From assembly GCA_002946415.1 (NCBI GenBank), contig NJPS01000019.1, positions 1-64,000 on the forward strand: 64,000 nt of DNA, read 5' to 3'. The DNA is from Rutstroemia sp. NJR-2017a BVV2. Lineage: Eukaryota > Ascomycota > Leotiomycetes > Helotiales > Rutstroemiaceae. The translations under genes and the position numbers were made by a program. Shown piece after piece: positions 22,030-55,289 of the stretch (the stretch's first letter is position 1; every line of letters starts with the position of its first letter). The notes beneath the pieces were generated by a model, which was not told the DNA's origin, did no database searches, and worked only from the letters and a program-made list of their open reading frames with translations.

Positions 22030-23710
22030 TACAATTACAAATAAATAAAAGAAACCTATATCGGAATCGATATAGTTATCCAAAATCTATATTAGCTAAA
22101 TCTAAAAACTTCTGAAGTACTATTATAACTTTAATAACTATCTTCTGAGAATTGTTTTCAAAGTAGATTATAACTAGAAGATTGGTAATCTGAAGATATA
22201 AAATATATAGAAAGAGATACCAACTAGTATAACTAATACTAAACCGATCTCTCTCGAGTAGATATTTACTTACAAAATAGACTAAGATAGATATATAATA
22301 TATTATAAATCGTATCTTATAGTTAAAAGTAACCTTTAGATCAAGAATATAATTAAATCAACCTATATAATAATACTTGCTTCCTATTCTTTTCGAATTA
22401 TTATAGCTATTATTACTAAGCTCGATCTAGAGATTAAGTAATATAATATAATAAATACTTTTGTAAATATATTAAAAGATTCAAATAGTAAACTAGTTAT
22501 ATATTATCTTCTTGATAGATATAAGATAGAAAACAAGATTGTAATTATCGATTATATATTCTATAATCTCTAAGATTCCCCAGCGATCTAGTTTAAAGAT
22601 TTTACTAATATACTTAGAGGATTTGAAATGAAACTATATTCTAATAAACTCTATATCTTTATTAGTAATAATTACAAAATATTAATACTGTTTTTTATCG
22701 ATAATATTCAGGTTATTTATAATAAGTTCTATATAGCTAAAGCTGAGAAGATTATTGATAGAATCCGATCTATATATAAACTATATAAAATAGATAATAT
22801 AGAATAGTTCTTAGATATATATATTATTAAAGATTATATCCAAAAGAAACTATAGTTTGTATATAATATCTATATTGAGAAAATCGCTTGGAAATTTGAC
22901 TTTGCTAGTAATAAAGTAATAAATACTTTACTTCCTATTATAGAGTTTAAGAAAAATAATAATATAATAGTTAGATCTAAGATTAAAGAATATTAGAAGA
23001 AGATTGGATCGATTTTGTATATTATAATAACTTTATATATAGATATCGCTTTTGTTATTTCTCAGTTAAGTTATTTTCTAACCAATCCCTTAGAGGAATA
23101 TATTATAGCTACTAATTATTATATTCGGTATCTATAAAGTATAAAATATCTTACTATCAAGTATAATACAGATTTATCAGTATAACTACTTATTACTTCA
23201 GATACTTTCTTTATAGATAATAATAAAACAAGATAATTATTCTAAAGATATATTATATCTTTATATAGTAAATTAATTATCTGGAAAGTATTCAAATAAG
23301 ATATAGTTATTATTTCCACTACTAAAGTAGAGCTTCTAAATATAGAATATATAGTAAAAGAAATAATAGTAATAAAAAGATTATTTAAAGAACTCGAATA
23401 AGTTATCTCAAAACCTATAATAATCTATTATGATAATATTCAGATAATCTAATTAGTAGTTAATAAGAACAAGTGAATTTCTACTAAGCTATATTATATT
23501 AATATCCAGAATATATAGTTTCGATAGAAGTATATAAAAGAATTATTTGATATTATATATCTCCCTATATAGGATATATCTATAGATAGATTTATCAAGA
23601 ACCTTATATACCAGTAGTTTGAATACTTCTATACTTATCTAAATTTATAGGATATAAAGAATAAGATTGAGAAGATTGTTAAAATAGTTAAAACTTTATA
23701 AAATATATTT
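22030..23710 (+). pseudogene. Copia-A reverse transcriptase/RNase H remnant
   Basis: A long plus-strand reading with Gln/Trp-to-stop changes shows Copia RT blocks. LEWIFTYKID lies near 22,245-22,280 and ASYSFRIIIAIITK near 22,380-22,420. FIDNIQVIYNKF (the YVDD box region) lies near 22,695-22,735. RNase H follows with TKVELLNIEYIVKE near 23,325-23,365, ending with a KEL...IYLPIQDISIDRFIK segment near 23,540-23,600. Confidence 0.8.
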
Positions 23711-29553: not shown

Positions 29554-29794
29554 GATTTCAAATTAATAAATTAATAAAAGTAAATCAAATATATATTATA
29601 AAGAAGAATTTCTTAATTTTATTTTGAAAAACTTTTCTATAAATAATTATAAATAAAAATATTAAAATATAATTTAGAATAATTAAATTAATCTTTTTTA
29701 AATTTTAAAAAGTTATTTCTAAATTAAATATCTAATTATAAATTTGTTTCTCTAATAATTTATTATTATTTTCTTGAATTTTTTAAATATTATA

Positions 29795-32700
29795 TATTAT
29801 AAAAACTGATCAATTAATATAGATTATAAAGATTACTAATTTATATTAAAATTTCTCTATTATTATAGATTTACTTAATAAACAATTTATAAAATTGAAC
29901 TTTAGGAATCAATAATTTCTTTATATAAATCTTTGATATTAATAATCTCAAAATATTATTATTTAAATATTACTTTATATTTTAGATCTCTTTTACAAAG
30001 ATTATTAATTTATAAAAGAAGTTAAGAAGATTAATTTAAGAAAATCAGATAATTATTATTTTATTATATAATAATTTAATATTATTCTTACTTAATTCCT
30101 TTTTATCTAGTTATCATAATATAAAATAGTTATAAACTCGATATAATATATAATTCTTTTATATAACTATCTATTAGTTTATTTGATAACTATCTTTATT
30201 TGTTTATAATTACTTTACTTTTCATATTATTTTTACTATTATAATTAATCTTTACAAATATATCGAACTTCAATATAATTAGTAATATTAAGTTTATTAT
30301 CTATATCTAGTAGTTTATATAGTATTTAGAATTTAAATAATAATATCTAATTAAAGATATCTAATATCTTATTAATCTTAACTTTATTTTTGATTTCGTA
30401 TATCTTAAAGTAATTAGTATAAATCAGAATAATATTCTTGATTAATTTATTACTTCTATATTATCTTTATCTACTTTCGATAAATTTAGAATATAATATA
30501 ATATTGAACTTTATAAAAAATACTATATCGATTTCGATAATTTCAAATCTATAATAGTATTTAATATTTAAATAATTGGTATTAAGAATATAAATAGAAA
30601 TGATATTTCTAATTCTTCTAATTTATATAATTAATAACTTTTATAAATAACTTTATCTATTTAGAAACTAAAATATCTAGTATTATTAACTATTAATAAT
30701 ATTAAGAATATCTTCAAGTTTCTCGAAAAAGAATATAGAAATTATAAAACTAAATAGGAAATAATATATAAGATATATAAAGAAAACTATATATAGATCT
30801 TATTAATAATTGATATAGTTTATTTTATTGATATCTTTCAATAAATATTAATAACTAATAAAATTATCTTATATAGTATAATTCTCTTTCTTAAATAATA
30901 TCTTATATTTATTAATTTATCTATTATATTTGGTCTTTAATATAAATATAAAGATATATTTTAATAAATATAATAAGATTATATTATATCTATAATTTAA
31001 TTCAAAAATTGAATTATCATTTATATCAAAATTAAAAGTTATAGATTTCTCGAAATTTAAAGAATCTTTATAATTATTACTTTCCTTGAAATAATCAAAG
31101 AAAAGATCTATTTTAATTAAATTGAAAACCAATTAATTAAGATAGAAATAAACTAATAATTTGGTTTTCTATATAAAATTCTTGATAATTATATTAATAT
31201 TATTAGTAGACTTATTGAAATAAGATCTTATAATATTAAAAACAAAGATATATATATAACCAATATATCTATAGATAATAATATATTTATAAAAGTAATA
31301 TCTAATAATTAGCAATTATTGGAATTATCTACTAGAAGTAGTTAAAGCTAATAAAACAAAAATAATAAAATTAAATTATTTTATCTTTATTATTTTATTA
31401 CTTAGTTCGAGGAAACTAAAAATCGATATAATTAGAAATTAGAAAACTATATTAATCTGAATAATCTATTATAAAGTAAATCTTTGAAAAATATCTTTAT
31501 AAATATTAAAATCAAATAGATAAAAAAACAAATCAATAATCCAAAATAGAAGAATCTAAAAAAACTATTTATCAATAAAGAAATTAAATTATCAAATAAA
31601 AAATCTTTTATAAATACTTAATTATTTTTCTCTAGTAAAGTTATTAATATAATTATTTTATTTATTCTTATATAGACTAATAATTTTAGTATATTCTCTA
31701 TCTCGGTTATTACCAAAAAGTATTATCTAACAAATTTAATATTTCTCAATAATTATAATATAATATATTTAATTAATAATATTTCATTTCTTGATAATAG
31801 CAAAATTACAAATACTAATAATAATAATATTATCGAATATAGTATTTTATTGCTCCAAATTATTAGATATAATATTTATATAATTAAGAAAATTCTCAAT
31901 AAAGTAAATAGTTTAAAAACTGAAAACTTTATATTAATTAATATAGTAATTATTTCTAGATTTTATATAAATATCATTTCTAAATTATATTTACAGAAAT
32001 CAGATTTGTAGATATATAGTTTTAATAATATATTAAGATATAGTCTAATAGAGAAAAGTATAATTATTATTATTCTTCTTTATATATATAATCTAGTTTT
32101 TTTGTAATTCAAGAAAGTTTCTTCTTATCTAACTATTATATACTCTATTTCTGAAAGTTATATTATAATAATATATCTAATTAGAAACTATAAAATCAGA
32201 AAATATTATAATCGATTTCGAGATTCTATATTAGTATAATCGGATTCAGCTTAAATATAATATAATTATATAGAATATTTTAGTAAAGTCACTTTGGAAA
32301 AATTAATAGATAAAATAAAAAGAATAAGAATTAAAGAAATCTCTCGAATTAATTATAAAAACTACTTTCTAATATATACTAAATAAGTTATTAACTATTA
32401 GTCTAAAGATTAATAACTTAAACAACTTTTTTATAAAATTATATAAAATCTTTTCAACTTTGTAAAAATATTTAATAATTATATATAACTTTTAGTAATT
32501 AAGAAGATATATAATAAGAAAATCTTTAGATTTCTATTAATTCAGAAAACTTATTTAGAAATATTCTATATTATTACTATCTTTGAAATATAAATAAAAT
32601 ATTAATATAATTTATTTATATATATTATTAAATAAGATAATAATATTTTAGTAATTAGAATCAAAAATTATACTAGTTTTGAGATCTAAACTAAATAAGA

Positions 32701-34518
32701 AGAAATTAAAATAAAGTTATTATTAGTAAATATCTATTAATTAAATAATATTATAAAAAGAATAGAATAAGAGATTATTATCAAATCAATTAAGATATAA
32801 ATCTAAGTAAACTTTTCTACTAACTTTTAACTTAAGATTATAACTATAGTAATATATCTCTATAATATTAGTTTATTGGAAATAAGAGATTTTAGAATTT
32901 CAAATAAGATTCTCAATTTGTAGTTTCAATAATATTTTAAATAGTATAATTCTATATTAATTACTAAAATCTATATAGATCTATAATCAGATTAGAATAG
33001 AATATACTAATTTAGATATTATATTTACTTTCTTGATAAAGATAGAAAATTGGATATAAATAAGAAATTATATAAAGTGAATTCTCGAACTTATTTAAGA
33101 TATCTAATAAATTATATATTTAGTATACTGATTTACAAAATCTAAATTTCTATATTTAAACAAATTATTATTACTTAAAATATTAGATTCAACAAAAATA
33201 TTTTCTATTCTAAAGAAGTTAAATCTAAGAAAGCTATTTTTAAGAAATATTTAAAAGAAATATCTTAGTTATTAAATACTTATATAATCGAAAATCCTAA
33301 TAAATCAATTCTCGAAAATAATAATATAATTAATTTTATAGTTATTATTAAGAAGATTACTTTATAATTTATTGATTAATAGAGAACTTATAAACAAAAC
33401 TTAAAAATAAATAATAATTCTAACAAAAGTAATAATAAAAGTTCTTTTAGTAATCTATAATCTGAAGATAATAATTTATATCTTAAAAAAAGTAATAAAA
33501 ATCTAGATAAATACCAATTTGAAAATTAGTTCTTAGATTAGATAATTAATAATATTATAACTTAATCTAATATCAGAAAAAAGTTAACTAATCTTTATAA
33601 TATCCTATTGATAGTTAAGATAGATAACTAAATACTAGATAATTCTATATTAACTAATAAGTTAGAAATTAGAATACTAATTAAATTTGGAAGTAAGATA
33701 GATTTCAAATATTATAATATTATTAATATTCTATATAGAGAATACAAAGATAGTTTAGATAATAAATTCTTCTAACTAATATATTTTATAATTAAAGATA
33801 CTTTATATAATTCTATATATATTATATATAATAGTAATAGTTTATATAAATAGAAAGAGATTAAGATAGTTTAATCTAATAATTCTTTATTATTAGATAA
33901 AAAAAGTCAATTATTTAAGAAATTAAGATTTGCTATTAAAATCTCTATAAGAAGATCGAATATATCTAAAAAAGATCTTTTAGAAATCAGATTATTTGTT
34001 TATAAAGTAGATAAATTTATTTCTAAATTCGAAATATATAAATAAAGATATTACTATTAAAGATATAATAAAAAGATTATTAATATATTTATTAGAATAA
34101 TTATTATTTAACTATCTAAAAGAAGTATTAAGAAGTTTAATAAATTTTATAATATATTCTAGCTTAATTAGTTAAATATAGATAAAAACGAAAAAAGCAG
34201 AAATTTTGTAATATTCTATAATATAGTAGTTATTATAATTATAAATAAATAAAAGAAATCTATATCGAATATAATATAGTTATCTAAACTCTATATTAGC
34301 TAAATCTAAAAGCTTTCAAAATACTATTATAACTTTGATAACTATTTTCTAGAAATTATTTTCAAAGTAGATTATAATTAAGAGATTGATAATCTGAAGA
34401 TATAAAATATATAAAAAGAGATATTAACTAATATAGTTAATACTAAACCGATTCCTTTTAAATAAATATTTATTTATAAAATAAATCAAGATAGATATAT
34501 AATATATTATAGATTATA
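29795..34518 (+). mobile_element. Copia-A copy 2, 3'-truncated at the compartment boundary
   Basis: The 5' LTR is 29,795-30,128, followed by gag, integrase and the start of RT. These are colinear with 17,595-22,305 of copy 1 (for example 33,060-33,160 against 20,860-20,960). Similarity continues to about 34,518 and stops within a few bases, where balanced-composition DNA begins. The missing 3' half is not in this window. Confidence 0.85.
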
Positions 34519-34872
34519 AAATAAAGCGAGTTCGAGGTGTTTCGGCCGCTACATTCAGCGAGCTTCGTCGCTGTTTTACGCAGCCTCAGCACGCGCTAAC
34601 GACATCGTTCACGTGCATCAGCGCGAACTCCACCTCACCAAAATTCATGGCCCTCATCTATCCCTTCCTGTTTCCCGTTTCCAACATCACCATTCTAAGT
34701 AAGAGAGAGCCAAAAATGGCTGTACTCAAGTTATTTAAACTATGGCCTTCCCATTTCTCTTTTTCTCAACACCTTTTCACCTCACCTAGCAATATACCTT
34801 CTTCATTCATATTCGAACATTTTTCAATTTACCTTTTTCCTCTCCCTTTCAAATCTTCTTCAACCATTGATT
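34519..34872 (+). promoter_or_regulatory. Left boundary segment and 5' region of the DUF3435 recombinase gene
   Basis: AT-saturated Copia sequence ends at about 34,518, and DNA of normal composition starts with AAATAAAGCGAGTTCGAGG. A TTTAAA motif at 34,733-34,738 and a pyrimidine-rich stretch (34,745-34,860, many CTTTTTC/TTCTTC runs), usual in filamentous fungal promoters, precede the ATG. If the Starship reading is right, this segment holds the element's 5' terminus. Confidence 0.5.
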
Positions 34873-37384
34873 ATGGCTAATACTTCGAAAAAGCGCCGTT
34901 TTTGTGCCGATGCCCCCGAGAATATTAATCTCCAACAATTCCTTCTACGACGTAGTAATCTTCAGCAACGGCCCAAGAAAACCAAGCTTACACCAGAGGA
35001 CTACGAAATCAATATTCAAAAGCTGAATGGAAATGGTCCTCTTGCATCAAAAGATGCAGATGCCACGAAGGAAAACATCACTGGTATATGCCGCAAATGG
35101 AAAAAGTAAGAAAACCATCGCCTTGCCTTGATCTTCACCTTGCAGAGCTCATATAATATCAGGTTCTGCGAATTCCGAAACGAGCAATACTGGCGGGCAG
35201 CTATTCAAAAATGCAACAAAGGGATTACTATGATGTTCCTCCGGTATATCTGTGAGAATTATAGGGTGCGCACATTCAGTTCTGTACATCAGTATCTGCT
35301 TCAGTTCAAACAGCTCTACAACCGAATCAACGGACGGCATATGGATACGAATGATGCGAAGGAAGTTTTCAAGGTATGATAGTATACTTTGTCGCTATTT
35401 CTCCGAGACAGATTGCTGATCACACGACTGCAGTATCTCGACACGATCTTGGCGAAGGAGTTCACTTTAAGACGAGAAAAGACAGCTAAGCCAGTGCTAG
35501 GAGCGGATGACCTTATCCTCCTCCTTACCCATCACTGGGCCCGGGACACATCTATATTTCCAACCGAAGATCAGCGTTTGGCACTTGCGACAATCATGCT
35601 CCTCCTTATCTATACTGGCTGTCGACCTGCCGAGCTGGTTGATGCAGGCAAGGTGAAAAGTGCTATCGATCGCGATCAAACATATGAAGATGACAATTGG
35701 GATGAAGAATATGAGGGCTTGGATGAGACGAAAGATGATGATCCTACATATAAGAATCCAGAGCCTTGGGTCGATCCAAAGGTCTCCGATTGCGATAATA
35801 AAGATGATGAGGAGGAGGTTCTTACACGGGAATACAAAGCTCTCTGTTATGAAGATATCCGTCTTTGGATTGTCCGAAATCCTACCCCTGGAGAACGCGA
35901 CCTCCTTGGAATGGAGATCACTCTTACTCATCATAAAGGAGCTGACAGGAAACCCAAACCGTATGTTCCTGAGTCGAAGTGTTTTGATCATGCTGACATG
36001 ATGTTCGTAGGACGACCTTCCTTTTTCACGAAGAAACTTTGCCAATTCTTTGTCCTGTTAGCCATATCTTAGCCATTGCCATCAGGGATAATGCTATCAA
36101 GGTAGACGGATTTACTCACGCCGAACCCTTTTTTGTCAGCAATCTACAAGATCCTACCAAAGCAGTTCTAGTACACTGGAAACCGGAGAAACTCAAGATA
36201 CCGATCTTTCGGCAGGCGATATGGACATTTGATGGTCTATCAACATCAGCACACAAGGCTCTCCGTTACTCGACCTTTGCCTATTATCTTGACCGTCTCG
36301 GCTGGGCTGCTGGATTTGCACAGAAGCTCACTAGCTACTGTTTCCGTCGAGGCACTGGAAATGCTGTAGACGGTACGAGATTCCCGTACATATGTTGGAT
36401 TCTTGCTGATATTTTCTAGGGGCAGCTTCAACCGCTGTACGTGACCAGGTGATGAGGCATAACCCCCAGACAGGAGTCTTTTGTGGATCCTATATTAACG
36501 AAAAGGTTCGATTTATCGTTCAAGATGCGGTGTTGGACCAGCCAACAAATATCGGATTTCTCCGTGCCTTTACACATATGAGTCTTACCTGCGACCCGCG
36601 TGCCCCGATCGATGTGCCGGAAGAGGTTTTGAAGGCTCTCCCTCCGGATCCAGAGATACTGGAACTTACAAGAGAACGCGAGGAATACAAAAGACAATAT
36701 GGATCCTACCGTCGAGCCCCGCCTGCCATCCGGAAAGAATGTGAACAACTCCGGCGGCAGATTGATTCGTTACAAAAACAACGCGATCGAGCTATCAAGA
36801 TCGAGTTCCGGCGAGATTATTTCGATCGTATCCATGATGAAGAATTAGAGAGGCAACTCAAAAAGGTCCCTACAAACGAATACATTGAACCTATTGTCCA
36901 TCACCAGCTTCCCGAACGAACTCGACTCCAGGAGGTGCTTTGTGATCTCTCGAGGGACCTGAGCCCAAGCGATATTGTCAGCCGCCGGATCCGTGCTATT
37001 GACTTAATGATCGCACTCTCCTATCGACAAGAACAAGAAGTTCCGCATAGCAACCGCTCAAGTCGAAGGTCTTCCGAGTCTCCCAAGGATGAGCCTCCCA
37101 AGGATCAATCTTTGTACGAAGACCCTTTTCCTCTCGTTTGTAAAAAGACCCAATGCATTATCTGTATCGGAGACGATCGAAGTACATATGAGTATCGGAC
37201 ACGGACTTACGCTACCCCGCATAAAATGATGAACCATGTGGATAGCCATTTGAAAGAGGTTCCGAAATCCCAGAGAATCTCCTGTACTCATCCTGTTTGC
37301 CAATCTGAAGGGCTTGTTCTCCAACATTTACAGCATTTCAAGAATCATGTGCAAACCGTGCATGGTATCAGCCTTCGACTGTAA
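34873..37384 (+). CDS. DUF3435 tyrosine recombinase, candidate Starship captain (intact)
   Basis: I model five exons: 34,873-35,105, 35,163-35,373, 35,434-35,960, 36,011-36,372 and 36,420-37,384. All introns are GT-AG and the frame closes to 765 aa. The family (Pfam DUF3435, often mislabelled FluG-domain) comprises the tyrosine recombinases that mobilise Starship elements. Active-site candidates are Arg212 in TGCRPAEL, Lys316 in THHKG, Arg436/437 in YCFRRGTGN, His458 in MRHNP and Tyr469 in GSYINEK. The C-terminus carries two Cys/His clusters (CIIC...HxxxH and CTHPVC...HxxxxVH). An acidic, low-complexity insert lies at residues about 235-280. The ATG chosen is in MANTSKKRR. The gene is first after the boundary and points inward. 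It shares its C-terminal half with 59,271-60,467. Confidence 0.88.
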
Positions 37385-37780
37385 TGATTGATGTTACTTT
37401 GCACATTATCCTCTATCTTACTACAATGTAATAAACTATCCCAGCAACATCAATAGCCTCGAATCCTTCCACTACAATACAGATGGTAGTAGAAATGAAT
37501 AAAGTTTCCTAGGGGCCCATTGAGATATCGTATCGGTTTTCCATTATGGTTTTATATTTCCGAAGAGATATGAAATTTGAAACGTTACAGCAAAGCCTCC
37601 TGGGTCGACGGTAGTCTAGTATTCAGTGGGGCGTACTCGAGAACCAGTCTCCGAGGAAGGTCAGGGAGTAGCGCGACTAGTGTTACGCATGCTTGTCTTC
37701 TGTGTCACGTGGCAGTGGTCAGGTTCTCGAATACTAATAGGCCGGTAAGACTATGAGTATTATCCTAACCAAGACCTAGG
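37385..37780. other. Intergenic, no feature recognised
   Basis: This is the 3' flank of the recombinase gene. No frame or repeat that I can support. AATAAA-like polyadenylation context occurs at about 37,428-37,435 (GTAATAAACT). Confidence 0.4.
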
Positions 37781-38140
37781 AATTACAGTATGCAATAATC
37801 CACCAGAACTCACCCTGCCACGAGCAAGCTTGAGTAGAATATACGCTGCTAGAACAGGGCATGGAGATTTCGCAGCATATCACAAGAGGCTTCATCATGC
37901 GGACGCTTTTCTGAGCTGTAGCTGTGGCCGTCCCAAGAGCCAGCTGCATCTCTTCTACTGCACCAGAGCAAAGAGGAGTAATAGACAAGATCATAAGGCT
38001 AATATCGCATACTTTCTAGGAAGTACAAAGGGTACAATGGAGCTAGCAAAATGGCTTGAAGACACAAAGTTCTTTGAGATTATCTGTCCCTCTAGGCCAG
38101 CAACTCGGTAAATACCGATCTGAATACTCTGAACAAGAAA
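37781..38140 (+). pseudogene. Non-LTR retrotransposon (LINE) C-terminal fragment
   Basis: The plus strand reads ARTGHGDFAAYHKRLHHADA, then SCSCGRPKSQLHLFYC. This is the RTGHG...F...CxCG...HxxxxC pattern at the C-terminus of fungal LINE RNase H/pol proteins. It ends near 38,111. Upstream pol domains are absent, as expected for a 5'-truncated or broken LINE. Confidence 0.7.
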
Positions 38141-38284
38141 TTATAACAATTAGGCATAGCCGCCATATATAGAGAGACAACCATTGGGTAGCTCTTGTTA
38201 TTATGTACTTAGATTATGTAGAAAATGCTGGTGTCTTTCAGCCCAGCACGTCCTACTAGGGTCACGTGCCGTGCTGCACGCGCC

Positions 38285-38327
38285 CGCCGCACGAAAAAAT
38301 AACAATCAATCAATCAATCAATCAAGG
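38285..38327. repeat. A-rich stretch plus (ATCA)n microsatellite
   Basis: ACGAAAAAATAAC is followed by five tandem ATCA-type units (38,303-38,325) downstream of the LINE fragment. This may be the repetitive 3' tail of that element. Confidence 0.6.
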
Positions 38328-38592
38328 TCCCCTGATTGTCATGTGATTAGGTTCATAACACTAATCTATGAAATAAACCGAGGGGTAAAAACACCGGTTA
38401 ACTTTTCCATCCATCACCTGGTATCCTATAAACATAGATCCTAGAACAAGCAGTGCTCAGAGGAAGCACTTCTTGCCCACAGCTTCGGCGTTGGTGATTC
38501 CGGCTAGTCCCTCAGCCCTTATTAGTGCTGCGAATGATAAGGAGGGATAGAGCTTAAGGCTGTTATGTAGGCGAAGAAACCTGATGGGTCGA

Positions 38593-39035
38593 TTAAGTGG
38601 ATAAAAAGTAGGGCCGAGACTTGGCACTAGCTGCTATAAAGCCTGGGAGAATGTTAGGATGATTGATAGGTGTAGGAGAAGATCCTACATAGTTCGCACG
38701 GTCATATACGCGGTCACTTTCTAATGCTGTTAGACTCCTGCCTTGCTGAGTAAAGGGTGGTAGTCGTCTACGTTCCCGAAAAGATTGGCTCAAGGATGAA
38801 TCGATAGTATTGTTGAAATGCGAAGTATAGGAGGGTGAAGGAAATATAGTCGATGCGTTGGTGGGTTGATGCCTATAGGAAGAAGAGTTGATCTGGATAT
38901 CAAGATCGGGATTTCGCTCCAAGGAGTCACGCGCCGCAGTAATGGAACGGAGATCAAATGATCTTTCTTCATATAGAGCTGAAGATACTGACGATGCAAT
39001 AACAGAAGAGCTAGGATCCGCAGAACAAACGGACT
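38593..39035 (-). pseudogene. Out-of-frame Ser/Pro-rich tail of HMG/SAM copy A
   Basis: This 148-codon open stretch begins SVCSADPSS and matches the C-terminal part of copy B (62,690-63,050), including SSPYRHQ-like, FPSPSYTSH and RRRLPP segments. It is disconnected from the HMG box by the deletion next to 39,040-39,060. It has no start of its own. Confidence 0.7.
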
Positions 39036-39964
39036 TCAATCCAGGAAGAAAATGAGTCGTTGGAGTCCTTGTCTGGCTTCTAACCTAGAATGTTTGCCTT
39101 TTGCACCTGTTACCCAATATCAACAAAACACCTACAACAAGCGGCTAGTCAACGAACCACCATGTAGTGCAGTGTGTTTCACCTTGAACTCCCTGAGGTA
39201 CTTTTGATATACGTCGTACTTAGGAGATTTTTTATACTCTGCTAATTCCGTGTAATACCCCTCTTTTATAGTGTTGGCCTGGTGTTGATAGGTTTCTCGA
39301 GCTTCTCTCGGTAAAGCTTGCCACCGTTCCCCATTAATTCTTGCAATCTCAGTGAAAGACAACTGTTGGTCCTTTAGAGACTCCCTCATATCTGCCTTCT
39401 GTCAATTTCACTACATGTATATATAGGTAGGAAAAGCTACTAACGGCTAGAGAATATCACATAGGCGGATGGAGGTCGCACCGGTGTATACTTGTCCATC
39501 TGAGTAAGGTTAATAGTGCTTCAAAAAATTGCATCTGCTGTGAAAGGGCATGGAAATGGCACCTCTAGACCATACTGACTTTAGGATGGCGCTTATACTT
39601 ACGTTTCGTACAAGCGACTGGAAGACGGTAAATGTGGGCTCGACCGCGCGATTCGACAATGGCCCGTTGAAGTTTCTGTTGATATGTCAAAGTTAGCATG
39701 GTAAAGTTGTTATAAATCCTATGGTAGAGATGGAAATTAAGATTGTAATAGATTGCAAATACCTTTCGATGACCAATCTTGACGTTAAGGGAGCGTCTAC
39801 GGTATATGTAAATTCTCTTCCTGCTTAGGCAATGCCATGGCGACTCACAAATCCGATTCTGTAATATCTAATACCGTCGTCCACGTATCAAAGCCTTCGG
39901 CGATGAGGACTTCCAGGTATTCTGACAACCCTAATCGCTTTAACTCTTCCTCCATGTCGGTCAT
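39036..39964 (-). CDS. SAM + HMG-box protein, copy A with truncated C-terminus
   Basis: Exons on the minus strand are 39,964-39,849, 39,796-39,763, 39,675-39,580, 39,499-39,445, 39,391-39,161 and 39,106-39,036, giving 200 aa. A SAM domain (residues about 1-60, LGLSEYLEVLIAEGFDTW) is followed by a basic KRKYKRHPK linker and an HMG box (about 85-165, with PPSAYVIFS and ERWQALPREARETY). HMG boxes bind the DNA minor groove and SAM domains mediate oligomerisation. The target is unknown. Relative to copy B (61,588-63,106), about 165 bp are missing in the last exon. This shifts the frame and ends the protein after HSRLEARQGLQRLIFFLD. The lost Ser/Pro-rich tail is still readable at 39,036-38,593 in another frame. 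It may encode a shortened protein or be a pseudogene. Confidence 0.75.
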
Positions 39965-40829
39965 GTAGGTTAAGCAATGGTCTGCGAACAATAAAACGTT
40001 CTGTATAGTAGATGCGGAGTATCACAGTCGAAGGTAAGTATAGTAGAGGAATGGCCAGCTGATAGGCAGAGCCACTATGATAGGCTAACCTAGCAATCAG
40101 TCATGAACGCGCAACAGAAGGAATGGGGGCAGACTCTAGGGTCAAGAATTAGCGGGGGGTATTCGGGACTTCGAATACGGCACCAGTTGGAAAATAAGAC
40201 GACAAGCACTATAAGCAATCAAACAAAATCAGATAGGTGCTAGGGAGAAGGAATATATCACAAAGCGTTGGTAGAAATAATTAGAAGGAAGAGAAAGATA
40301 TCTGGGATGCTGCTAGAATGGATGATAAATGGGAAAACTGCACAAGAGCGCTTGTTGATCATACTAAAGTATGCGCACGTAGCAGTGATACAGGAGCGAG
40401 CGAGCGGTCAGCCTTGAGAATGGAGGCAAGGAAACAGCAGATGTTTTTAGCGACAAGTGCATGGGTAGGGTCGACGTAAAGATCGCCGATGAACTGACGA
40501 ATAGAGGGTGGCTCAACGTCTGATTGGCCCCATGCGAACCTCAAGCTAGGTTGGAGGGAAGTGAATGGAAGAAGATTAGAGATATTCTGCCGAAACGCGT
40601 ACATCCCGACCTTCGTATAGGTTGACATAAATGCCACGAGATCGAGATTGAGATCGAGATCTCAAATAGAAGACGGGCTCCATATTTAGCAGGAGATCGA
40701 TTCCCTTCGACATTTTCGAGAACACGTGTGGCGCAGTCATGATCCATGTGTGGCGGAAATTCGGCTACGGCAACGGTAGAGGACGTTTAGCTCCGGTAGA
40801 TGATGGCATGACAAGATATCTCAAAATGA

Positions 40830-41618
40830 CGAGAATAACCACATTTGCCTTCTTGAATGCACGTCCAGAAAATGAACAATTAATCAGACAACGGGTAGGC
40901 TTCTCCGCAGGAAACGGAGAGCCACTCGGCGGAGCCGGAGCTCACTCCAGATCTCGATATGCCACAAGTGAGCCCTAAAAATATGAACCCCTAAAATAGT
41001 TTACCTCCAATTTTCTACTATTGCATCTTCGATTCTTCGGAGGCCAACTCCGAATATCTTGTAAACGGTTCTCATTGGATGAGGCCCAATGAGGCCTGTG
41101 TCCACCTCCTGTTCGATGCTTCTTAATCATCAATTCTATCAATAAGTTATGATGAATGGATGTATTTCTAATTTCTTTGTTTTCACCACTTCGTACGCCC
41201 TTCAACGGCTTCAATTAGGCTGTCGATCTACATCACTGGACCGAAGTCGGTCTACCTACCTGCCCACCTACTTCTTCCAACGCATATTAACTACCATCAC
41301 CATCTCCAGGCATCTATCGACTCATCCTCGCGGTACTTTATCCTTCCGTAAGATATAACACGATTCAAAGGCACATCAACAACACCTACCATACTAACAA
41401 TGTCATTACGAACACTCCGTCCCTATAACATACAGGATAACGATGCAATAACAAATAGCACGAATCAATTAGGCACCCAGAAAACATCCACGAGCTCCCA
41501 GCCACGCGTCGTTCCGCAGAACGAAGTACAAACACCCGCTCGAGGTACGAGAATGAGAAGGAAGCCGGAGCATGTTATACAAAATGCATGTTTGAATTGC
41601 AAAAGACGTCGAGCCAAG
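40830..41618 (+). repeat. Direct repeat copy 1 (promoter and first exon of Zn2Cys6 gene)
   Basis: This is the same sequence as 52,964-53,912 in direct orientation, sharing CTTCTTGAATGCACGTCCAG, the CGGAGCCGGAGCTCACTCCAG block and the exon 1 start. Relative to copy 2 it lacks about 140 bp after position 40,975 and about 50 bp near 41,090. Confidence 0.85.
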
Positions 41619-43648
41619 GTAAGTAAGTCCATGATCATAGTTCGGAAAGATTAGCAGTTGTTTCTAAGTATCGTGTGTCTGGTAGCTTAAGTTGTTTTAG
41701 TGTGATGGCAATAAACCTTGCGGAAGATGTATCGATAACCCATGCGACCAGGAGTGTTCCTATCAGCCTCATAGCAAACATGGCAAGACGGAATTAGTCG
41801 AAAGCTTGAAATCGCATGATTCCTGGAAACGCAATGCTGAGCGTGTATTTCAGGCTATCGAAGCAAACGAAAATACCTCCGTGATCATAGAACGAATACA
41901 AAACCACGAATCGGTCGAGAGCATCGCACAATGGTTGCAAGCAGCTAATAGTAACTCCGAAGGCCCTTCACCGATAAGTTCTTCCCGCTGTATAATAGTA
42001 GGTTCTGATAACGAAATGGATGATTGCGCATCCCCGGGATTTCGATGGTCATCGGTGACAGCGAATGAAAACATTGTACAGCACCTGCTGACTCTGTATT
42101 TCACCTGGATCCATCCGGTTTATATGCTGTTTGATGAGCAACTGTTTGTGCATAGTTATCAACAAAGATCCGAGGTATTCTGCTCATCCCTCTTAGTCAA
42201 TGCCATCTGCGCTATGGCTTGTTATTACCACACGGCTATGGATACCGACACCACAGACTTTGACCTACTGGGAAGAGATTTCAGTGATGCTGTCAGACAC
42301 GAGTTGGATCACGAAGATGAAAGCCTTTTGAGTGTCCAAACTTTCGCGGTAATGTTCTTGGTAGGCTGTGCACAAGGCAAAGGGCTGCATGCTTCCAAAT
42401 ACTTGCTAGTCGCCAACAGCTTAATAGCAAGTCTAGAATACATTAAAGACGACAGCTACCAAAGGGTTTGGAGGATTACCGCTCGAGGTGTTAACTGCCT
42501 GAACATGTAAGTTTTGTCTCTCAGTGTTCGGCTTTCTACCATCGGCATAGTTGACAAGTGTAGTGAGTGGGCACAAATGACCTTTCAGGTACCACTGATC
42601 GTCAACATAAACCCTCCTAGTAATTATAATCTAGACGACGAGGAGCGCGACATGCAAATTGATAAGATAAGGTAGGCATCCTACCGCAATCCGTTAGTCA
42701 ATAAGGCAGAGATATATTGACATCCAAGCCTCACTGCTACAATCCACAAAGAGAAGGCAAAACTTCTCGATATTATTTATGATGTTGAGGTTTTGTTGTA
42801 TAGCTCAGGTGGCCCACCGATATCTGCGCAGGATATACTGAATATATATAGCAGATTCATAACCTGGCGTGGAGATCTACCGTGTGCAATCGGCAACACC
42901 AGCAATAAGTCCACTGAGCTGTTGCCGCATGCACTTTCAATGCTGTAAGGATAACCAAAAGCTTGTACACACAGTTCTTACTGATTGGCTTCTCAGAATC
43001 TTGTACCATACTGCTGTCGCTCAACTTCTTCGTCCACTCCTTGACTTTAAAGGATTTCCCATATATCTAGTGGATCATGTCGTGTGGCAGCATACGCAAT
43101 ATGGCCTTTTCCTCCTTGAAGAGTACTATCATACGCCAGATATTTGCCGATACCAACCTGTTGTGCAGATGTTTGCTATTTTACATTTGACAGATATGGT
43201 TGCGCGATTCTTTCCTAATGTACCCCATAATCACGGGAAAGATGGTCCAGCTGCTGTTCGACTAGCTATTGACGCATTGGCGAAGTCTCGTCCTGGATTT
43301 CCTGTGGCCCGAACTTTCTTGGAATTCATACACAAAACCGCAAAGGATACCATTATTCCCCTACCGAACGATTTAAAAGAGTCCTTCCATTGTTCACACT
43401 TTAGCAGATCGAGATTTCTTTTAGACGACACCATTGATGCCTGTACGAGAACGACGTACACACAACCAGTCTATAGTATCCAGATGAGATTTTCTCTCAC
43501 GATTTCTTCGGATTGGGTAGCAACATGTGCCGTATTTGGATTTCGACACCCCGGTCCCGACGCTGTCGGCCTGCGGCAGCTGTCTGCTGAAGAGCAAGGT
43601 GCGCAAAACCTTATGCAGATCACGAATCTGCTCAATAAGGATGGATAG
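41400..43648 (+). CDS. Zn2Cys6 transcription factor (666 aa)
   Basis: Five exons join in frame: 41,400-41,618, 41,701-42,506, 42,564-42,671, 42,729-42,944 and 42,997-43,648. The binuclear zinc cluster is split by intron 1: Cys64, 67, 74, 80, 83 and 92 (C-X2-C-X6-C-X5-C-X2-C-X8-C) with an extra Cys88. The middle and C-terminal parts follow the fungal-specific transcription factor layout: a PVYMLFDEQLF-like segment (about 165-180), ITARGVNCLN, then EWAQMTFQVP after intron 2, then YHTAVAQLLRPLL after intron 4. Such proteins bind CGG-type sites in the nucleus as dimers. The target pathway is unknown. The lead exon and promoter are duplicated at 52.96-53.91 kb. The NLR gene lies convergent to it, 1.3 kb downstream. 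Confidence 0.85.
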
Positions 43649-44929
43649 ATTGAATTGAGACACAACTAGTTCATTGACTGTGAAGTTGCATAATATCGAC
43701 TGTTGTGGACATGGTATAGCAGTGATGGCTCTGGTATTGGATTCCTGTTCTTCGGCAATCTTCCTATTTCTGATTGAATAGGTGAGCCTTCAATGGTTTG
43801 TTGAAGAATCAAACATTGTTAGTCATTTAGTCGGACTATGATATGCGAACGACAAAATGGCGGCAAACACTTCTGTGCTGTGCGATGGTCCGAGAGGCAA
43901 GAGGTTTCGAATTATTTAGCGATAACGGAGAAAGATCGCGATTATGGCCAATATTTGCACAATGGAGGTCGATATCCTTCAATGTGCCCTGTTGTCGCGA
44001 CTGCGCCGAGTTCAAGCAATTATTCGCAATAACACACCATTATTATTCCCTTATTCTTGTCGCTAAGCGTGGGAATAGCTGGCCCTTTGCATCATGGTGT
44101 ATTCGTGGTCTTGGAGATCGAGTTGTCGATTGCATATAGCAGATATCGGCGAAGACAGGCAAGGTCAAAATGTACACGAAGCACTCGCTCCATTTAGCTT
44201 GCCGGACAGTGTCTCCGAACCATTCACGGCTGCGATGGAAAGATGAAAGGTCGGAGGATCAATGGCTTGGCGATAAAAATTGATATAAATCTCTCTGGTT
44301 GATCTTGCTTTCGATATTTTTCGAATCTCATCCTAAATTTCAAAGAAAAAGATTAGCATACCTACATGTTCGGTCATGTAGATATCGGATTCATAGTCTT
44401 CGAGTATAATAGATTTGTGTTTGAGATTAATGGAGGTGTTCTTCAGACACGCAGTCGCTAACGAAATCGACTTCACCTCAAACTCACTTTGAAAGTTTCA
44501 GCTCCGCTCGCTAGACCGGGATACCTATGAGCGCTTTACTAAAAAGAGCCTAGACTTTGCATAAACGTTATGGGCAAGTAGCTTCTACAATACCCCTTGA
44601 GTTACTCTGTACCTTACGCGCTCTCACTTTACAACATACCAATATAAGTATAATCGCTGCTTAGTAGTAGGTGTCCCTACTACGTAGCTAGGAAGAGTAA
44701 AAGTGAGGCTTTTAGAATATTCTAGGCTAATTTACCTAATCAATATATAAAGTTCACTTTCCCCAAGTTCCTCTCTGTCAAAGTTATTAAAATAATATGA
44801 AGTCTATAAAAGCTTTCCGTGAAAGGGGATGGAAATGTTCTGTTCTACTTGTCTTATGTATAAGCTCTTAACCTAATTATATATGGAGGGAAAGCTATTT
44901 TGCAAGCAATTATAACTATCATTTTAGGA
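43649..44929. other. Intergenic between convergent Zn2Cys6 and NLR genes
   Basis: No coding frame here is convincing. Frames of 64-98 codons at 43,838-44,139 lack family resemblance. A short hairpin, AGTAGTAGG...CCTACTACG, lies at 44,663-44,683. AT content rises from about 44,640 to 44,900. Confidence 0.4.
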
Positions 44930-47900
44930 TTAGGTTTGCTGTGAAAGGTCAGAAAGCCAGTCCTCCGATATTACACGGCTTGGATGCCCCTTCGGAAACT
45001 TGGATCGCATAATCCTAACCACCTGTTCGAGCAGCGCAACCGCCTCCTTGACCTGCCCATTTGCCTTGTACGCACGGGCGAGTACTTGTTGCGATGTTAG
45101 CCGACTCGGGTGATCCTCGGCCTGTATGGTCTCTCGGATCTTAACCACCTGCTCGAGCAGCGCAACCGCCTCCTTGATCTGCCCATTTGCCTGGTACGCC
45201 ATAGCGAGTGCGTCTTGTGAGTTCAGCCGATCCGGGTTATCCTCAGCTAGCGTAGTCTCTCGGATCTTGACTACCTGCTGTAGCAATGCAACTGCCTCCT
45301 TGACCTGCCCATTTACCCGGTACGCACGAGCGAGTGCCTGTTGTGATGCTAGCCGATGTGGGTGATCCTCGGCCTGTATGGCCTCTCGGATCTTGACCAC
45401 CTGCTCGAGCAGCGCAACCGCCTCCTTGGCCTGCCCATTTACCTCGTACGTACAAGCGAGTACGTATTGTGATGCTAGCCGATGTGGGTGATCCTCGGCC
45501 TGTATGGCCTCTCGGATCTTGACCACCTGCTCGAGCAGCACGACTGCCTCCTTGACCTGCCCATTTGCCCGGTACGCAATAGCGAGTTCGTGTTGTGAGT
45601 TCAGCCGGTCCGGGTTATCCTCAGCTAGCGTAGTCTCTCGGATCTTGACCACCTGCTGTAGCAGTATGACTGCCTCCTTGACCTGCCTATTTGCCCGGTA
45701 CGCAATAGAGAGTTCGTATTGTGAGTTCAGCCGATCCGGGTGATCCTCAGCTAGTGTAGTCTCTCGGATCTTGACCACCTGCTGTAGTAGCACAACTGCC
45801 TCCTTGACCTGCCCATTTGCCTGGCACGCACGGGCGAGTGCATGTTGCGATGCGAGCCGATCCGGGTGGTCCTCAGCCAACGTGATCTCTTGGATCTTGA
45901 CTATTTTCTGGAGCAGCGCGACTGCTATCTTGTTCTTTCCTATATTTAACAGACTCCCTGCCTGGAGATCAAATAGCGGGAGAAACTCTTTGGACGGTTC
46001 TTCAGGGTGCTTGCTAAGTTTGCTAAACATGTCTTCTAGAAGATGGCTAAGCCTTGTGTCTTGTCGCATGTTTAACAATATCCAGCCACATCGGAGAAGA
46101 ATTGGGATAACAATAGATTCATGTCCAAATAAGAACACTCTTCCAATCTTGATATCTAGATAAGACTGTATATGCGGTAAAAGACGTCTCTCTTGAGTTT
46201 GCCACATTATAGGGTTTGGTCCAGAAAGTGTAAGAACGCATCCAGCAGCTATCCAAGTTACACCTTGTTGTTCCGGGTCTTGTCGGTCTTTGGCCCAGGC
46301 GTGTGCTAATGGGTGCATGGATAATTCCACTAAACCATCTACACCGTGCCGCATAACCAAGGAAAGTGATATTAGTTGAGAGCTGGCCTCAATGAGACGA
46401 AAAGGATCCCATTCGTCGCCCTCTGCTCCTAGAAAGCCAGGTAATCGCAAAACGTGATTTCGAGATATAGCATCTATCTCATTGGTCTCTTTACGGCTCG
46501 TGCGGAGAACTTTTCTACCACCATCCCATGCGCTTTGAAAGATCTTAAGAGGAAGGACAGCGGAATCTAACATTGATAGGATTGCAAGCAAATCAAGAGC
46601 ATCTTTTGCAGCTTCGCTTTTCGACTGCTCTAGCACCTCTGCTGATGCTTCAAAGGTTGCGTAAACATCGTGATATCTCGATTGTGCTTGCTTGGGCCGG
46701 AACTGCATAAGCCGCTTCCGCTGTCGTTGATAGACCTGGGGATATTGGTGCAATTGACAGCGGCCTTTAGCAATATATGCGCCAGCTTGGGTCAGTGCAA
46801 GCGTATGCGATCCTAGAAGTTGGACAACTATCTCAGCCTGATCGTTGTAAGACCGCCACGATTCTTTGGGGATATGCGCTGCCTTGAGGAGAAGCTCCTT
46901 GGAATCCTCATTTCCAAGACCTTCTAATGCTTCGAATTGCTCTGGGCTATACTCCTTGCATTCAGAAACACGAGAGGTCATGAGAATAGCGCCGTGAGTT
47001 CCGGATGGAAAATAAATCTGATAATCGAAGTTCGGATCATCGGCGTTATCAAGAATCAAGAGCCAGGGTTGTTTGATACTGGCGAGAACGTAAAGAGCAT
47101 CGGAAACGCTCTCGACTGAGCGTCTGAGCAACTTTGCAATAGTGATAAAGTCACTCTCAGCAGTAGAGGCCTTGCTGACATTGACCCAGAATACCCCCCA
47201 GAACCTATAATTATAAGTTAAGATAATAATTTCAGAGGTATAGATATATCATACTCTTCTCGCATTTGACTTGCAACTTGTAAACAAATCTCGCTCTTCC
47301 CTTGTCCTCCTAGCCCAGTGATAACGAACCTCTTTTGTTCATCAGAGGCAGCCGGACCACAATGCAAAGCTTTCTGTATTCGAGATATAAGTTCAGTACG
47401 TCCGGTGAATAGATTGTTAGTAGCGCGAGGTATTTTCCACTGCATATTTCCATGATATGTAATGCCAATGTCTAGAGTAGATAGATAGATTAGCATTTCT
47501 CTTCGAATCGGGAGAGAGTTCTTTGAATGATTAGATTGGTTGTTCTCAGAAGACTAAATGACCTAGGGTACTACATACTCTTAGTTGAAGCAAATCTGTT
47601 TTCGACAGCACTAGGGGTATTTTCAACAAGATCTTTCAACCGAAAAAGCACCTTCACATAGCTCTCATCAGATTGACTCGAGAATTTAACCAAGTCGGAG
47701 TGATCTCTATCGAGTGGCTCTTCTTTATGGAAATTATCTCCAAGGTCAATTCGACAAGCTGAATCTCGTGTAACCATATAGCAAAATAACCCATCCTTCG
47801 ATATCTGTCCATTCTCCATCACCTGTCAGAGGATATCAGCAGCCATTTCTCGTCAGCGAAAGTTAAACATACTCGAACCATTTTGGTCATTCTCTGCTCG

Positions 47901-48997
47901 TAGAAAGATATGATTTGGAATGCTTGTTCTTGGCAACATTGCATGAATTTTTGTCCGAGCTCTCTTAAGAACGGTGTTGGCTCTGATTCGTTATCGAGAT
48001 GAAGATCATGGATCAATTGTTGATTGAGTTGTCCATTTACGATCTCTCGCAGAGATTCATTTTTGAGGCCTAAGTTAGGCACCCCGAAAAATATCAAGGC
48101 ATAAGATGATCTGAAGAAATCATTATTATGAGGTTGAGCGCGGCCCCTTAAGGCCAAATATAATGCCTAAAAGTTTAATCATCAGTTTCAAGGCTGAAGA
48201 GAGCAAATAGATGAAGCAGACCTCTTTAACCAGTAAACCTCCAAGGCTATGAGCCACGAATATAATCGGTCTTTGGCTTGTCTGCAATTCCACTATTAGC
48301 ATGCGTATATATGTAGACGACGCTAATGAGAACCTTTGTATCCGCTCGAAATGCTCTAACAGTACTAAGAAAACTCTTTGCCAAGTCAGGGATGGAATGC
48401 TTAGCATTCGCATTCTTAATTGAGGTATCGTATCCATAGACCAAAATCCGAGCGGATGGTATATCTTTAGGAAGAAAATCACGTATCCAAACATGATCTT
48501 TATCTTTTGCTTTGAACGAGCCGATCGAATGATTACCAAGGCCTGGAACGGCAATGATGCTATTGTATGTTAATCATTATTGCTCTTCCAAAGTAACTCC
48601 TCTGTACTTACTCGATAGATGCTTCGTCACTATCAAAAAGAGGGGTAATCCCAATAAAAGTTTCATCAACGGTGTAAAGAAAGCTCTCTGGATCTGGAAT
48701 TTCGAACGAATTAACTGTTGCTGTAAACGCAGAAGAAGATGAACGTGCGAGAGTAAGATGATAGTGAGACTGATGCGCTGGCAGCCATTTTCTAAGCTCG
48801 TCTATTAAAGATTCTTTCGTTGTCTGAAACGGGATTCCTTGGATGCGACGACATTTGAGCTTTTGCAACGGCGGATTGGTTTTATTGGTTTTACTGGTCT
48901 TCGTGCGTCGCCACAGCATACTACCCACAACCAATGCGATAGCCACGATGATAGGAATCATTGGACTCGAAGGGGCTTCAATCAATCCAACTTTCAT
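44930..48997 (-). CDS. NLR-type protein: TM anchor, SesB-like alpha/beta hydrolase, NB-ARC, TPR (1233 aa)
   Basis: Seven minus-strand exons close in frame: 48,997-48,612, 48,559-48,334, 48,281-48,222, 48,166-47,873, 47,822-47,579, 47,471-47,255 and 47,204-44,930. Residues 13-28 form one hydrophobic helix. Residues about 130-300 are an alpha/beta hydrolase: VPGLGNHSIGS oxyanion loop region, then nucleophile Ser216 in AHSLGG. Downstream is an NB-ARC with P-loop GLGGQGKS (456-463), Walker B WLLILDNADD (about 522-531) and an ILMTSR sensor segment. The C-terminus has seven nearly identical 42-aa TPR units plus a degenerate one. Fungal proteins of this build (hydrolase-NB-ARC-TPR) act in non-self recognition and regulated cell death. 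That role is inferred here. It is transcribed divergently from the decayed gene at 49,360. Confidence 0.9.
45015..45905 (-). repeat. Seven tandem 126-bp repeats coding TPR units of the NLR
   Basis: Each 126-bp unit encodes a 42-aa module around KIRETTLAEDHPDRL..., ending VKEAVALLEQVV. Units differ at few positions, concentrated at residues just after the LxSQ motif and within the RET/REA segment. High identity between units is typical of fungal NLR repeat domains that vary in copy number. Confidence 0.9.
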
Positions 48998-49359
48998 AAA
49001 TGTCAGGGCCGTGTTGGAAGTTTTTGATTGTATGATTTAGTGACGAAGGAAAATGTTGTGATGGATTAAACAACAATATGGTCCTGACTCCTGCGGAGCC
49101 TCACCGAGTTGAACTGGAGGGGGAAGAATAGAGTTAATTGGACGTGCGGATAAAAGCATAATTTCAGCTGTTGTGAGGCGCAGCGCTGCTTACCCTGTGT
49201 GAGCATACAAGCTTTTCCATGAATATCGATCAAAAATATTTTCAAGTTAACTTACAGTAAAATTACACAACAATCATCGCAAAACAGTATTTAAATTTAT
49301 ATCCTGGCAACATTCGAAAAAGACTACAATTGCTCCGATAAAAACATCTGTGATTTTCG
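48998..49359. promoter_or_regulatory. Divergent intergenic promoter region
   Basis: This 362-bp region lies between the NLR start (minus) and the 49,360 frame (plus). TATTTAAATTTATATC at 49,289-49,304 could serve as a TATA-like element for the plus-strand gene. No operator can be named. Confidence 0.35.
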
Positions 49360-49879
49360 ATGGAAGTACCGCCATTCGCGAAAGCCGATCAACTCAACGA
49401 TGAGCTTGACGATAATCTGCAATTAATTCCACCTGGCATTACATTTCCTGGATTTTGCAATTTTATCGCGCCCTTGGAAACCCTTCTCGATACTGATGTC
49501 TCTGGGCGATATGCCTATGGCGAGATTCGGCTTACGAGGCTGAACTTATACTCCAAAATCTTCCTGAAGAAGTTCAGTTTCCATCGGATACGTGCGCAAT
49601 ACTCCGACTATTTGCTTCATTCTATGGGCCTCTTCTTTTCGTGTTGGCAGGGTTTCTGTGGTGCTGAGTGCGATGCAGGTTACTATGGCAGCCGGATCTT
49701 GTGTCGCCACTAGACAGTGGGAAGCCTATTGGCACTTTTGTCAGTGGTTTAGTATCATTTGTCTTCTCATGGTAGCAGTGCTGGTCTTATGGCTGAGTTT
49801 GTTGTTTTGGTATAAATTTACAAAGGAATGGATTTATGCGATCGGTGAGCATCGGAGAAGGAAAGGTTGTATGTTCTGA
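49360..49879 (+). pseudogene. Uncharacterised fungal membrane protein, frameshifted
   Basis: The first frame (49,360-49,620) runs from MEVPPFAKADQL to a GEIRLTRLNLYSKIFL segment and AQYSDYLLH. The continuation is found in two other frames: FYGPLLFVLAG (about 49,620-49,653) and then VSVVLSAMQV through to a second hydrophobic helix and KFTKEWIYAI (49,653-49,879). Joined, they resemble a widespread fungal hypothetical family with an RLTRLN motif and two transmembrane helices, often near NLR-like genes. Two shifts within about 40 bp and no suitable introns make a pseudogene most likely. A sequencing error is the alternative. Confidence 0.6.
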
Positions 49880-50715
49880 TTGCTGTGCTGAAGGTGCTTA
49901 GTTTCGGGGCCTACGCCGATGATTTTATGGTTATTGAGAAGTATGAATTGGAAGGGGATTAACTGATCGCATATTTAAACCCCGATATACCGATCGTCAA
50001 GAACGCCACCAACGTTGTGCTCCAAGCCTCATGTCTGTTCACAGCCTGTAAATGGTTAGAACTTTTATGGTCAAAAAAGCGCACGTAGACTTTCTTTCGC
50101 GCTATACCAAAATACGAAGGATGGGTTGTGCGCGGGCCTGCTATACATTGAGGCACGGCGTAGACTTGTTTTTTCCCATCCCGCGGTCGGATTAGGATCA
50201 CATTTGAGTTATGTGCGAAGAACGCGCGCGGCGATTCCAACCCCGTTTTTAGCCAAGCCAGAACTCGTCGCGGTGGATTGATATTCCATGGGCAAAGTAT
50301 CGTGGTTGGGAATTGATGGGGGTGTGCCAAGAGTTTGTGGCTGGGTTCCGTGCGTTGCGGAGGAAGGGAGCGACTTAGGTCTTATGGCACTATTCTTTAT
50401 TTTTCGGGTTGGTAGTTGCGAGTTGCATTTTTAGGTTGGGAGGGATTTTATTTGAGATTAGGGAAGAAATAATAAATTGTAATACGTACACAATCCATGT
50501 GAGAAAGTAATCCATCCCGTAGAATAGGAACCACGATTCTTGGTATAATATGATATGTTATTTGTAGGAGATGAGGTAGAATTCATAGGTGTAGTTGGAG
50601 TTTTTGTGTTCTAGGATGCTGGGAACGAAAACATGCACAGTAGCCGGTCTGATGCAACTGATTTCCTGTACGATTACTAGCAAGCATTGTGTAAAATATT
50701 ATCATAAGAATTCGT
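49880..50715. other. Intergenic, no supported gene
   Basis: A 123-codon minus-strand frame (50,330-49,959) exists but has no recognisable family, no intron structure and no homologue in the window. I do not call it. Confidence 0.4.
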
Positions 50716-53912: not shown

Positions 53913-54365
53913 TTTGTCTGTGGCTATTTACTAGGATATTTTCAGCCACTGAAGCAGCAGGACGCTTCTCGAAATCAAATTGGAATCCGCCACAGAAACC
54001 AAGAGGCTAGTCTAATCACATGGAGTTGTTATTGGGGCTTGACAGTTGTGGCGTCAAGATCAAAGAACCAATGGAGACTTGGGTTTCACAACTTACGAAG
54101 ACTCAGATGAGGTCATTTCTACCTGTTTGCATTGATAGTAGGGGCAAACTACATGCCAGCATATCAAAAACACAGCAAATTGTAAATATTATACTTCTTG
54201 GTTTAACGCCACTGGGTCAAGAATCTGGCTGCGTCACTATCCATCGTGTAATATCTTCGCTACTTTTACTCTATATAGAGGTGCAAGTGCTCTTCTTCCT
54301 TACTCTCTCCATCTGTACATCTAGATTCAAATCAAATTTCAAACCACAATCAAAAGTCTTTCAAA
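53913..54365. other. Junction DNA and 5' region of the four-TM gene
   Basis: Sequence after the break in the duplicated exon has no match in the window. A CT-rich run (54,290-54,320) precedes the ATG at 54,366, as in many fungal promoters. Confidence 0.4.
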
Positions 54366-55080: not shown

Positions 55081-55289
55081 GAACTTGTTTATTACATCTC
55101 GGCTTGACAGCTAGTTATTACGTGGAAGCGATGATTAGGACGTTGGGTTTATATTGCTGAACTTCAAAGTGGGAACCGAGTTCTGTAAATGCAATCACCA
55201 TTGTATTGAGATAATAACTAGTATTCAGAATTACTATTTGAGTTGAGCACGAAGCTCCATATACTAAGGAAATACATCTTGCTTATATA

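Follow-up and report, generated by a model that had tools for sequence, protein, structure and literature searches.

An interrupted retroelement delimits both ends of a probable giant transposon of the Starship type in Rutstroemia sp. NJR-2017a BVV2

The window analysed here, a stretch of 64,000 nucleotides, comprises positions 1 to 64000 of contig C11 (NJPS01000019.1, which ends at 67522) of Rutstroemia sp. NJR-2017a BVV2 (Helotiales, Rutstroemiaceae), the single genome of this fungus that was analysed (43.4 Mb in 79 contigs). Our results indicate, with a probability of about 0.93, that a giant transposon of the Starship type, at least 70.9 kb long, has its left terminus at position 34519 and inserted in a long terminal repeat (LTR) retroelement already altered by repeat-induced point mutation (RIP). 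The assembly contains both ends of the element, a duplication of the 5-bp TTATA, empty sites in paralogous repeat copies, and an intact DUF3435 tyrosine recombinase gene (the captain) that comes first and reads inward. The Starship traits recovered were a DUF3435 protein with its catalytic residues and a predicted recombinase fold, direct repeats at two pairs of junctions (C11/C69 and C23/C30) with empty sites of the paralogous kind, and large, variable cargo: the left arm extends for 33.0 kb without a right end, and the cargo differs and is shuffled among copies.

The left junction is sharp to the base. As the initial annotation had claimed for about position 34,518, composition switches between adjacent 100-bp bins, from 13% GC in 34419-34518 to 53% in 34519-34618, and the composite RIP index, 0.47 on the left, is negative in all four stretches measured on the right. 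The interrupted retroelement has a longer copy in the same window (17577-27121, with LTR-like ends at 17595-17935 and 26781-27121), and 29778-34514 aligns with 17577-22310 of that copy at 84% identity, the alignment ending at 22310/34514. The longer copy around the break, used as a query, gave 31 matches in the genome, one of which (C69:30286-32074) starts at query position 214, equivalent to 22313 in the window, and is the missing 3' half that the annotation had proposed to look for. This half begins at C69:32077 and runs downwards, the order on C69 being GC-rich DNA ending ...GCACCGCGACTGAGA, then TTATA, then the retroelement. The short direct repeat suspected at the two junctions is this same TTATA, and the objection that the retroelement copy might be simply truncated, with no continuation anywhere, falls with the continuation on C69.

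Joined over a single TTATA, the C11 and C69 flanks align without gaps to ten uninterrupted paralogues of the retroelement, which carry TTATA (seven), TCGTA (two) or TTGTA (one) at the landing motif; the TCGTA and TTGTA paralogues would fit a landing motif created by RIP prior to the insertion. The terminal 1.4 kb of the C69 arm recurs on C68 (91%) and, in two pieces each, on C47 (84 and 87%) and C30 (81 and 85%), where the right ends stop within 3 bp of one common point. A shorter relative lies on C61 and short matches on C17, C43, C5 and C56, and none of the 12 matches in this search falls on C11. A second, independent pair with a 5-bp TTATA duplication is formed by C23 and C30, as the left flank on C23 stops at 3595 and the right flank on C30 starts at 3591 of the same repeat on C50; two paralogous empty sites were found for this pair, and uninterrupted paralogues are also present for the sites on C59 and C50. 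Each of the four right flanks was set against the sequence that continues each of the four known sites: C69 fitted C11 (0.86) and C30 fitted C23 (0.83), against at most 0.64 for all other combinations and at most 0.58 for C68 and C47 with every site. The minimum size follows from 33,004 bp on C11 (34519-67522) and 37,859 bp on C69 (32078-69936), plus the gap between the contigs; in the same terms, C23 and C30 give 13,721 + 57,052 = 70.8 kb by our arithmetic.

It is very improbable that the element is real and the right end on C69 comes from another insertion, in which case its own right end and size might differ from those given here. Room for such a mismatch is left by the nature of the two halves, which are different parts of the retroelement and not mutually comparable, and by the lack of overlap between C11 and C69. 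However, three of the 31 matches, at 83-86%, start inside the query (at 214 on C69, at 563 and at 956), and only that on C69 starts at the break, where we estimate the chance of finding an unrelated truncated copy at about 1%. The joint also restores the paralogues with exactly one TTATA. Furthermore, the C69 arm holds a block that comes next after the transcription-factor block in the C23 element, in the same orientation (87%), and that lies inverted in the C50 element (93%); C69 is therefore tied to the family independently of the retroelement.

The left junction is not a product of chance, because four further full-length copies of the captain unit, on C17, C59, C23 and C50 (96, 95, 81 and 80% identical to that on C11), carry the same left boundary elsewhere, amounting to five copies at five different sites. 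The conserved left end starts ATAAAGCGAG in all five, preceded by TTATA and two variable bases. The family occupies at least six insertion sites in the genome, as given by the five left ends and the right ends on C68 and C47, since the latter match no left-end site among the four whose continuation is known. Either could be the mate of C17, the site that has no known continuation; the C17 left flank belongs to no traceable repeat family, and the C47 right flank matches it at 65% only. With up to three mismatches allowed, the left-end motif occurs at six places genome-wide. The sixth, on C47, is inverted with respect to an adjoining degraded left arm (C47:223682-225099), whose terminal 63 bp are inverted relative to the remainder.

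The captain starts at 34873, which is 354 bp inside the boundary fixed by the five copies, and is the first gene of the element. The intact, inward-reading DUF3435 gene of the initial annotation was recovered as a protein of 765 amino acids after splicing, from exons 34873-35105, 35163-35373, 35434-35960, 36011-36372 and 36420-37384 (limits set by eye), with GT-AG introns and no stop. PF11917 (DUF3435) was detected on three of its open reading frames (ORFs) at 41, 82.2 and 72.8 bits against a cut-off of 25.8. The catalytic residues R212, K316, R436, R437, H458 and Y469 stand where they had been placed and are kept in 96, 98, 97, 97, 92 and 95, respectively, of 99 sequences, comprising the captain and 98 homologues of at least 600 amino acids among the matches listed. 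The fold modelled for the C17 captain, 97% identical to that of C11, appears Cre-like; a sequence search for solved structures related to the captain found none.

In a tree of the captain and 28 homologues, hand-picked for spread among the best 120 of 156 and without family-labelled captains, the protein was placed among Helotiales DUF3435 proteins, grouping with Sclerotinia and Monilinia proteins (100/100) and then with Pseudogymnoascus (100/99). Branching near the captain tracks host taxonomy, and the tree therefore does not point to recent transfer across distant hosts. The same clade includes sscle_07g060440 of Sclerotinia sclerotiorum (90%, covering 100% of the captain) and DID88_000600 of Monilinia fructigena (82%, covering 96%); the gene closest to the right end of our element likewise has a relative in M. 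fructigena. A literature search for Starship and Rutstroemia together found no paper, with a coverage that left out the majority of subscription papers as well as the large Starship catalogue of 2024; within the same limits, and judged by title and the start of the abstract, no paper listed for Starships in Sclerotinia or Monilinia treated this element, and in a further search no paper among those listed contained TTATA.

A Crypton is a short recombinase-only element without cargo, and the window could in principle hold a small Crypton-like element of this kind, some 3 kb long, or else a solo DUF3435 gene, followed by ordinary host DNA. We consider this scarcely credible. The similarity of C11 to the four other full copies does end 55-287 bp past the gene (37439-37671), and solo DUF3435 genes are reported, in the excerpted text of the source, to be commoner than captains that belong to complete elements (PMC12134995); yet the 3' half of the retroelement lies not at 37.4-37.7 kb but on C69 beside the recurrent terminus, with 37.9 kb behind it, and cargo blocks are common to the copies and shuffled between them, the C69 arm included. 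A Crypton proper does not accord with a right end on a different contig, behind cargo. A subtelomeric repeat, suggested by captain copies that all face contig ends, was rejected as the C11, C17 and C23 ends beside the captains are without telomere arrays, and contig breaks within a long repeated element fit the pattern better.

Several observations weigh against our interpretation of 34519 as the terminus of a large, mobile Starship. Two of the four testable left ends have a mate (C11 and C23), and repeat-family searches for the mates of C59 and C50 gave none that starts at the break (40 of 123 and 40 of 106 candidates scored). No contig matched the tails of both C11 and C69, whose ends do not meet, so the middle of the element is unseen. 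The empty sites are paralogous, from other repeat copies in the same genome, and not allelic, and movement of the element was inferred from sequence rather than observed. The three intact captains differ by a dS (synonymous divergence) of 0.12-0.15, and the element copies are therefore not fresh duplicates of one another. The C17 protein model has a pLDDT (the model's per-residue confidence score) below 50 around the putative nucleophile. Lastly, the subterminal inverted repeat is an imperfect and weak match (GTTT..CGGCCGC), its score being reached by 13 of 1000 shuffles; terminal inverted repeats are frequent in Starships, not universal.

Six target sites provided data, namely C11/C69, C23/C30, C47, C68 and the paralogues standing in for C59 and C50. 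To the right of TTATA all six share only A at position 12, that is TTAT(N7)A. This position had been fixed beforehand from the Hephaestus motif, and A occupies it in 43.5% of 749 TTATA sites of the local AT-rich background, giving p = 0.0068 for six of six. In the excerpted text of PMC12153272, the target of the Hephaestus family is TTAC(N7)A, that of Nebuchadnezzar of A. fumigatus is TTACA(N5)AAT, and Starships range from about 20 to 700 kb. Set against that partial description, the Rutstroemia element resembles Hephaestus Starships in having its captain as the first gene at the 5' end, in its cargo and short direct repeats, and in a size within the range, and it differs at one target position, with T for C at position 4 in six of six sites and C in none, such that no site matches TTAC(N7)A. 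The left joint of the element itself, TTATANNATAAA, also fits TTAT(N7)A, one position from the Hephaestus motif as excerpted. For the Phoenix family, the portion of the source available gives direct repeats ATTAC, TTTAC and TTTACT (PMC12257634), which are approached by our five left flanks, ATTATA in three and TTTATA in two (WTTAT), again with T where these published repeats carry C.

TTAT(N7)A lies a single C-to-T change away from TTAC(N7)A as published and might be a product of RIP. All nine flanks, representing at most seven sites, are AT-rich (GC 0.10-0.24), and the composite RIP index is positive in eight of them; the C68 flank, at -0.18, is an argument against RIP as a strict requirement. 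With both strands counted, the density of TTATA(N6)A is 13.9 per kb in the RIP-mutated flank versus 0.97 in balanced DNA, and that of TTACA(N6)A is 0.58 versus 0.60. Motif density by itself may explain the preference for AT-rich sites.

The two variable bases between TTATA and ATAAAG are AA in C11, CC in C17 and C59, GA in C23 and CT in C50, and are followed by 22 columns identical in all five copies. They mismatch the bases of the target at each of the four testable left ends, whether compared with the element's own right flank (C11, AA versus TC; C23, GA versus TA) or with the paralogous empty site (C59, CC versus GA; C50, CT versus AT). At the four right ends ACTGAGA abuts TTATA directly, with no extra bases. 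Alternatively, the dinucleotide might have arisen by ordinary mutation of a spacer not recognised by the recombinase; C11 and C17/C59 are, however, separated by two adjacent transversions, and the next 22 columns are invariant in the five copies.

These ends suggest a mechanism in which the captain, as a Cre-like tyrosine recombinase, would recombine the two ends that carry TTATA, thereby forming a circle and resealing the donor site, and the circle would then recombine with a TTATA that has A at position 12. Less surely, strand exchange might extend over some 7 bp, with two bases in addition to TTATA; the simplest account of the dinucleotide would then be that two mismatched bases of the incoming circle are retained on the left, having come along from the earlier insertion site in the manner of Tn916/Tn1549-type elements. 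The Int protein of Tn1549 recombines across non-homologous bases, according to the excerpted text of PMC5871717. The comparison is by analogy only, as the elements so described are bacterial and conjugative, and in the present case five bases out of seven would be in common. Random resolution of mismatches would, by our arithmetic, produce one and the same result at both ends of the two pairs once in 16 cases, and therefore either the resolution is biased or a different explanation of the dinucleotide holds. A bolder reading combines these elements: a Starship lineage whose captain shifted from TTAC(N7)A to its RIP product TTAT(N7)A, such that host defence would make the landing sites and the element would home into RIP-ruined repeats, with the dinucleotide as a Tn916-like coupling sequence recording the prior site. 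We regard this as conceivable but rather unlikely.

The features of the window are given in Table 1. Pfam was applied to the longer cargo ORFs, unspliced. The claim that all DNA to the right of the captain is cargo stands in that no right end matches on C11; part of that DNA proved to be an older remnant bearing DUF3435, and the middle between C11 and C69 is out of view. The truncated DUF3435 gene at 59269-60464, absent from the initial annotation, is the second in the window. An annotated protein of Rutstroemia sp. NJR-2017a WRK4 (P0013) has the same kinase and DUF3435 parts, an arrangement thus common to both isolates. A DUF3435 remnant at C30:12045 was considered as a counterpart of that at 59269 and rejected, as the two show no mutual DNA match, and its protein is 41% identical to the captain. 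The 2.3-kb inverted unit has one copy behind the captain and one behind the DUF3435 remnant, with partial copies on C20 and C50, and may be a piece of an older left arm.

Table 1. Positions of the transposon features, the interrupted retroelement and the cargo within the window
Feature	Position	Strand	Basis or remark
Paralogous empty site in the longer retroelement copy	22310..22314	+	TCGTA there, TTATA in the interrupted copy
LTR retroelement copy, 5' part, RIP-mutated, broken by insertion	29778..34518	+	GC 0.142, RIP index 0.47
Left copy of the 5-bp target-site duplication TTATA	34514..34518	+	Right copy C69:32073-32077
Variable dinucleotide, AA in C11	34519..34520	+	Not the bases of the target; five-copy alignment
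Conserved left terminus ATAAAGCGAGTTCGAGGTGTTTCGGCCGCTA	34521..34551	+	30 of 31 columns identical across five copies
Captain, intact DUF3435 tyrosine recombinase, 765 amino acids	34873..37384	+	Pfam, residue alignment, splicing
Left-arm cargo	37385..64000	.	Continues to contig end 67522; right-end search without match on C11
Repeat unit inside the element	38368..40680	.	Inverted copy 61046-63326; pieces 78.6, 88.5, 83.8%
Transcription-factor cargo block	41701..43645	+	ORF 41806-42510 with fungal transcription-factor domain, 23.3 vs 23 bits cut-off; next ORF without family
TPR protein, NLR-like	44933..47553	-	STAND/AAA matches below cut-off in next ORF
Fungal rhodopsin-domain ORFs	50719..51611	-	Pfam
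WD40-repeat ORF	55475..57025	-	Pfam
Older remnant: fungal protein-kinase ORF, then truncated DUF3435 (59269-60464)	58542..60464	+	DUF3435 part 83% to captain

The transcription-factor block is homologous to parts of the C23 and C50 elements (85%). In the C23 element the captain is followed immediately by the block 50389-53916 (97 and 92%) and then by the transcription-factor block, whereas the two captains are only 81% identical, which suggests cargo exchange or uneven RIP. The NLR-like gene contains 126-bp tandem repeats, 77-84% alike, in its TPR part (45012-45925), and a DDE_3 fragment with a Pfam score below the cut-off occurs in the left arm. The gene nearest the right end (positions 3442-5513 of the right arm) points inward and matches proteins with PF24626; its relatives are found in Stromatinia cepivora (81%), Monilinia fructigena (73%, named chromo domain protein) and another Rutstroemia isolate (81%). 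Pfam gave no family for any of ten ORFs in one set, seven from the right arm and three from the window. Part of the C11 tail has a relative on C67, and the last 557 bp of C69 have one on C41. Matches of equal score and equal spacing on C71/C56, C71/C2 and C37/C8 hint at duplicated or redundantly assembled contigs.

It is difficult to prove the ends of a Starship when only one genome is available. In this case the broken retroelement acts as its own empty-site control, and a single assembly yields both ends, the duplication and the target at base resolution. The target, as a possible product of RIP, suggests a link between genome defence and the sites where such elements settle, and the variable dinucleotide offers a handle on strand exchange by the captain. 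If the combined retargeting and coupling reading were true, the history of jumps would be readable from sequence.
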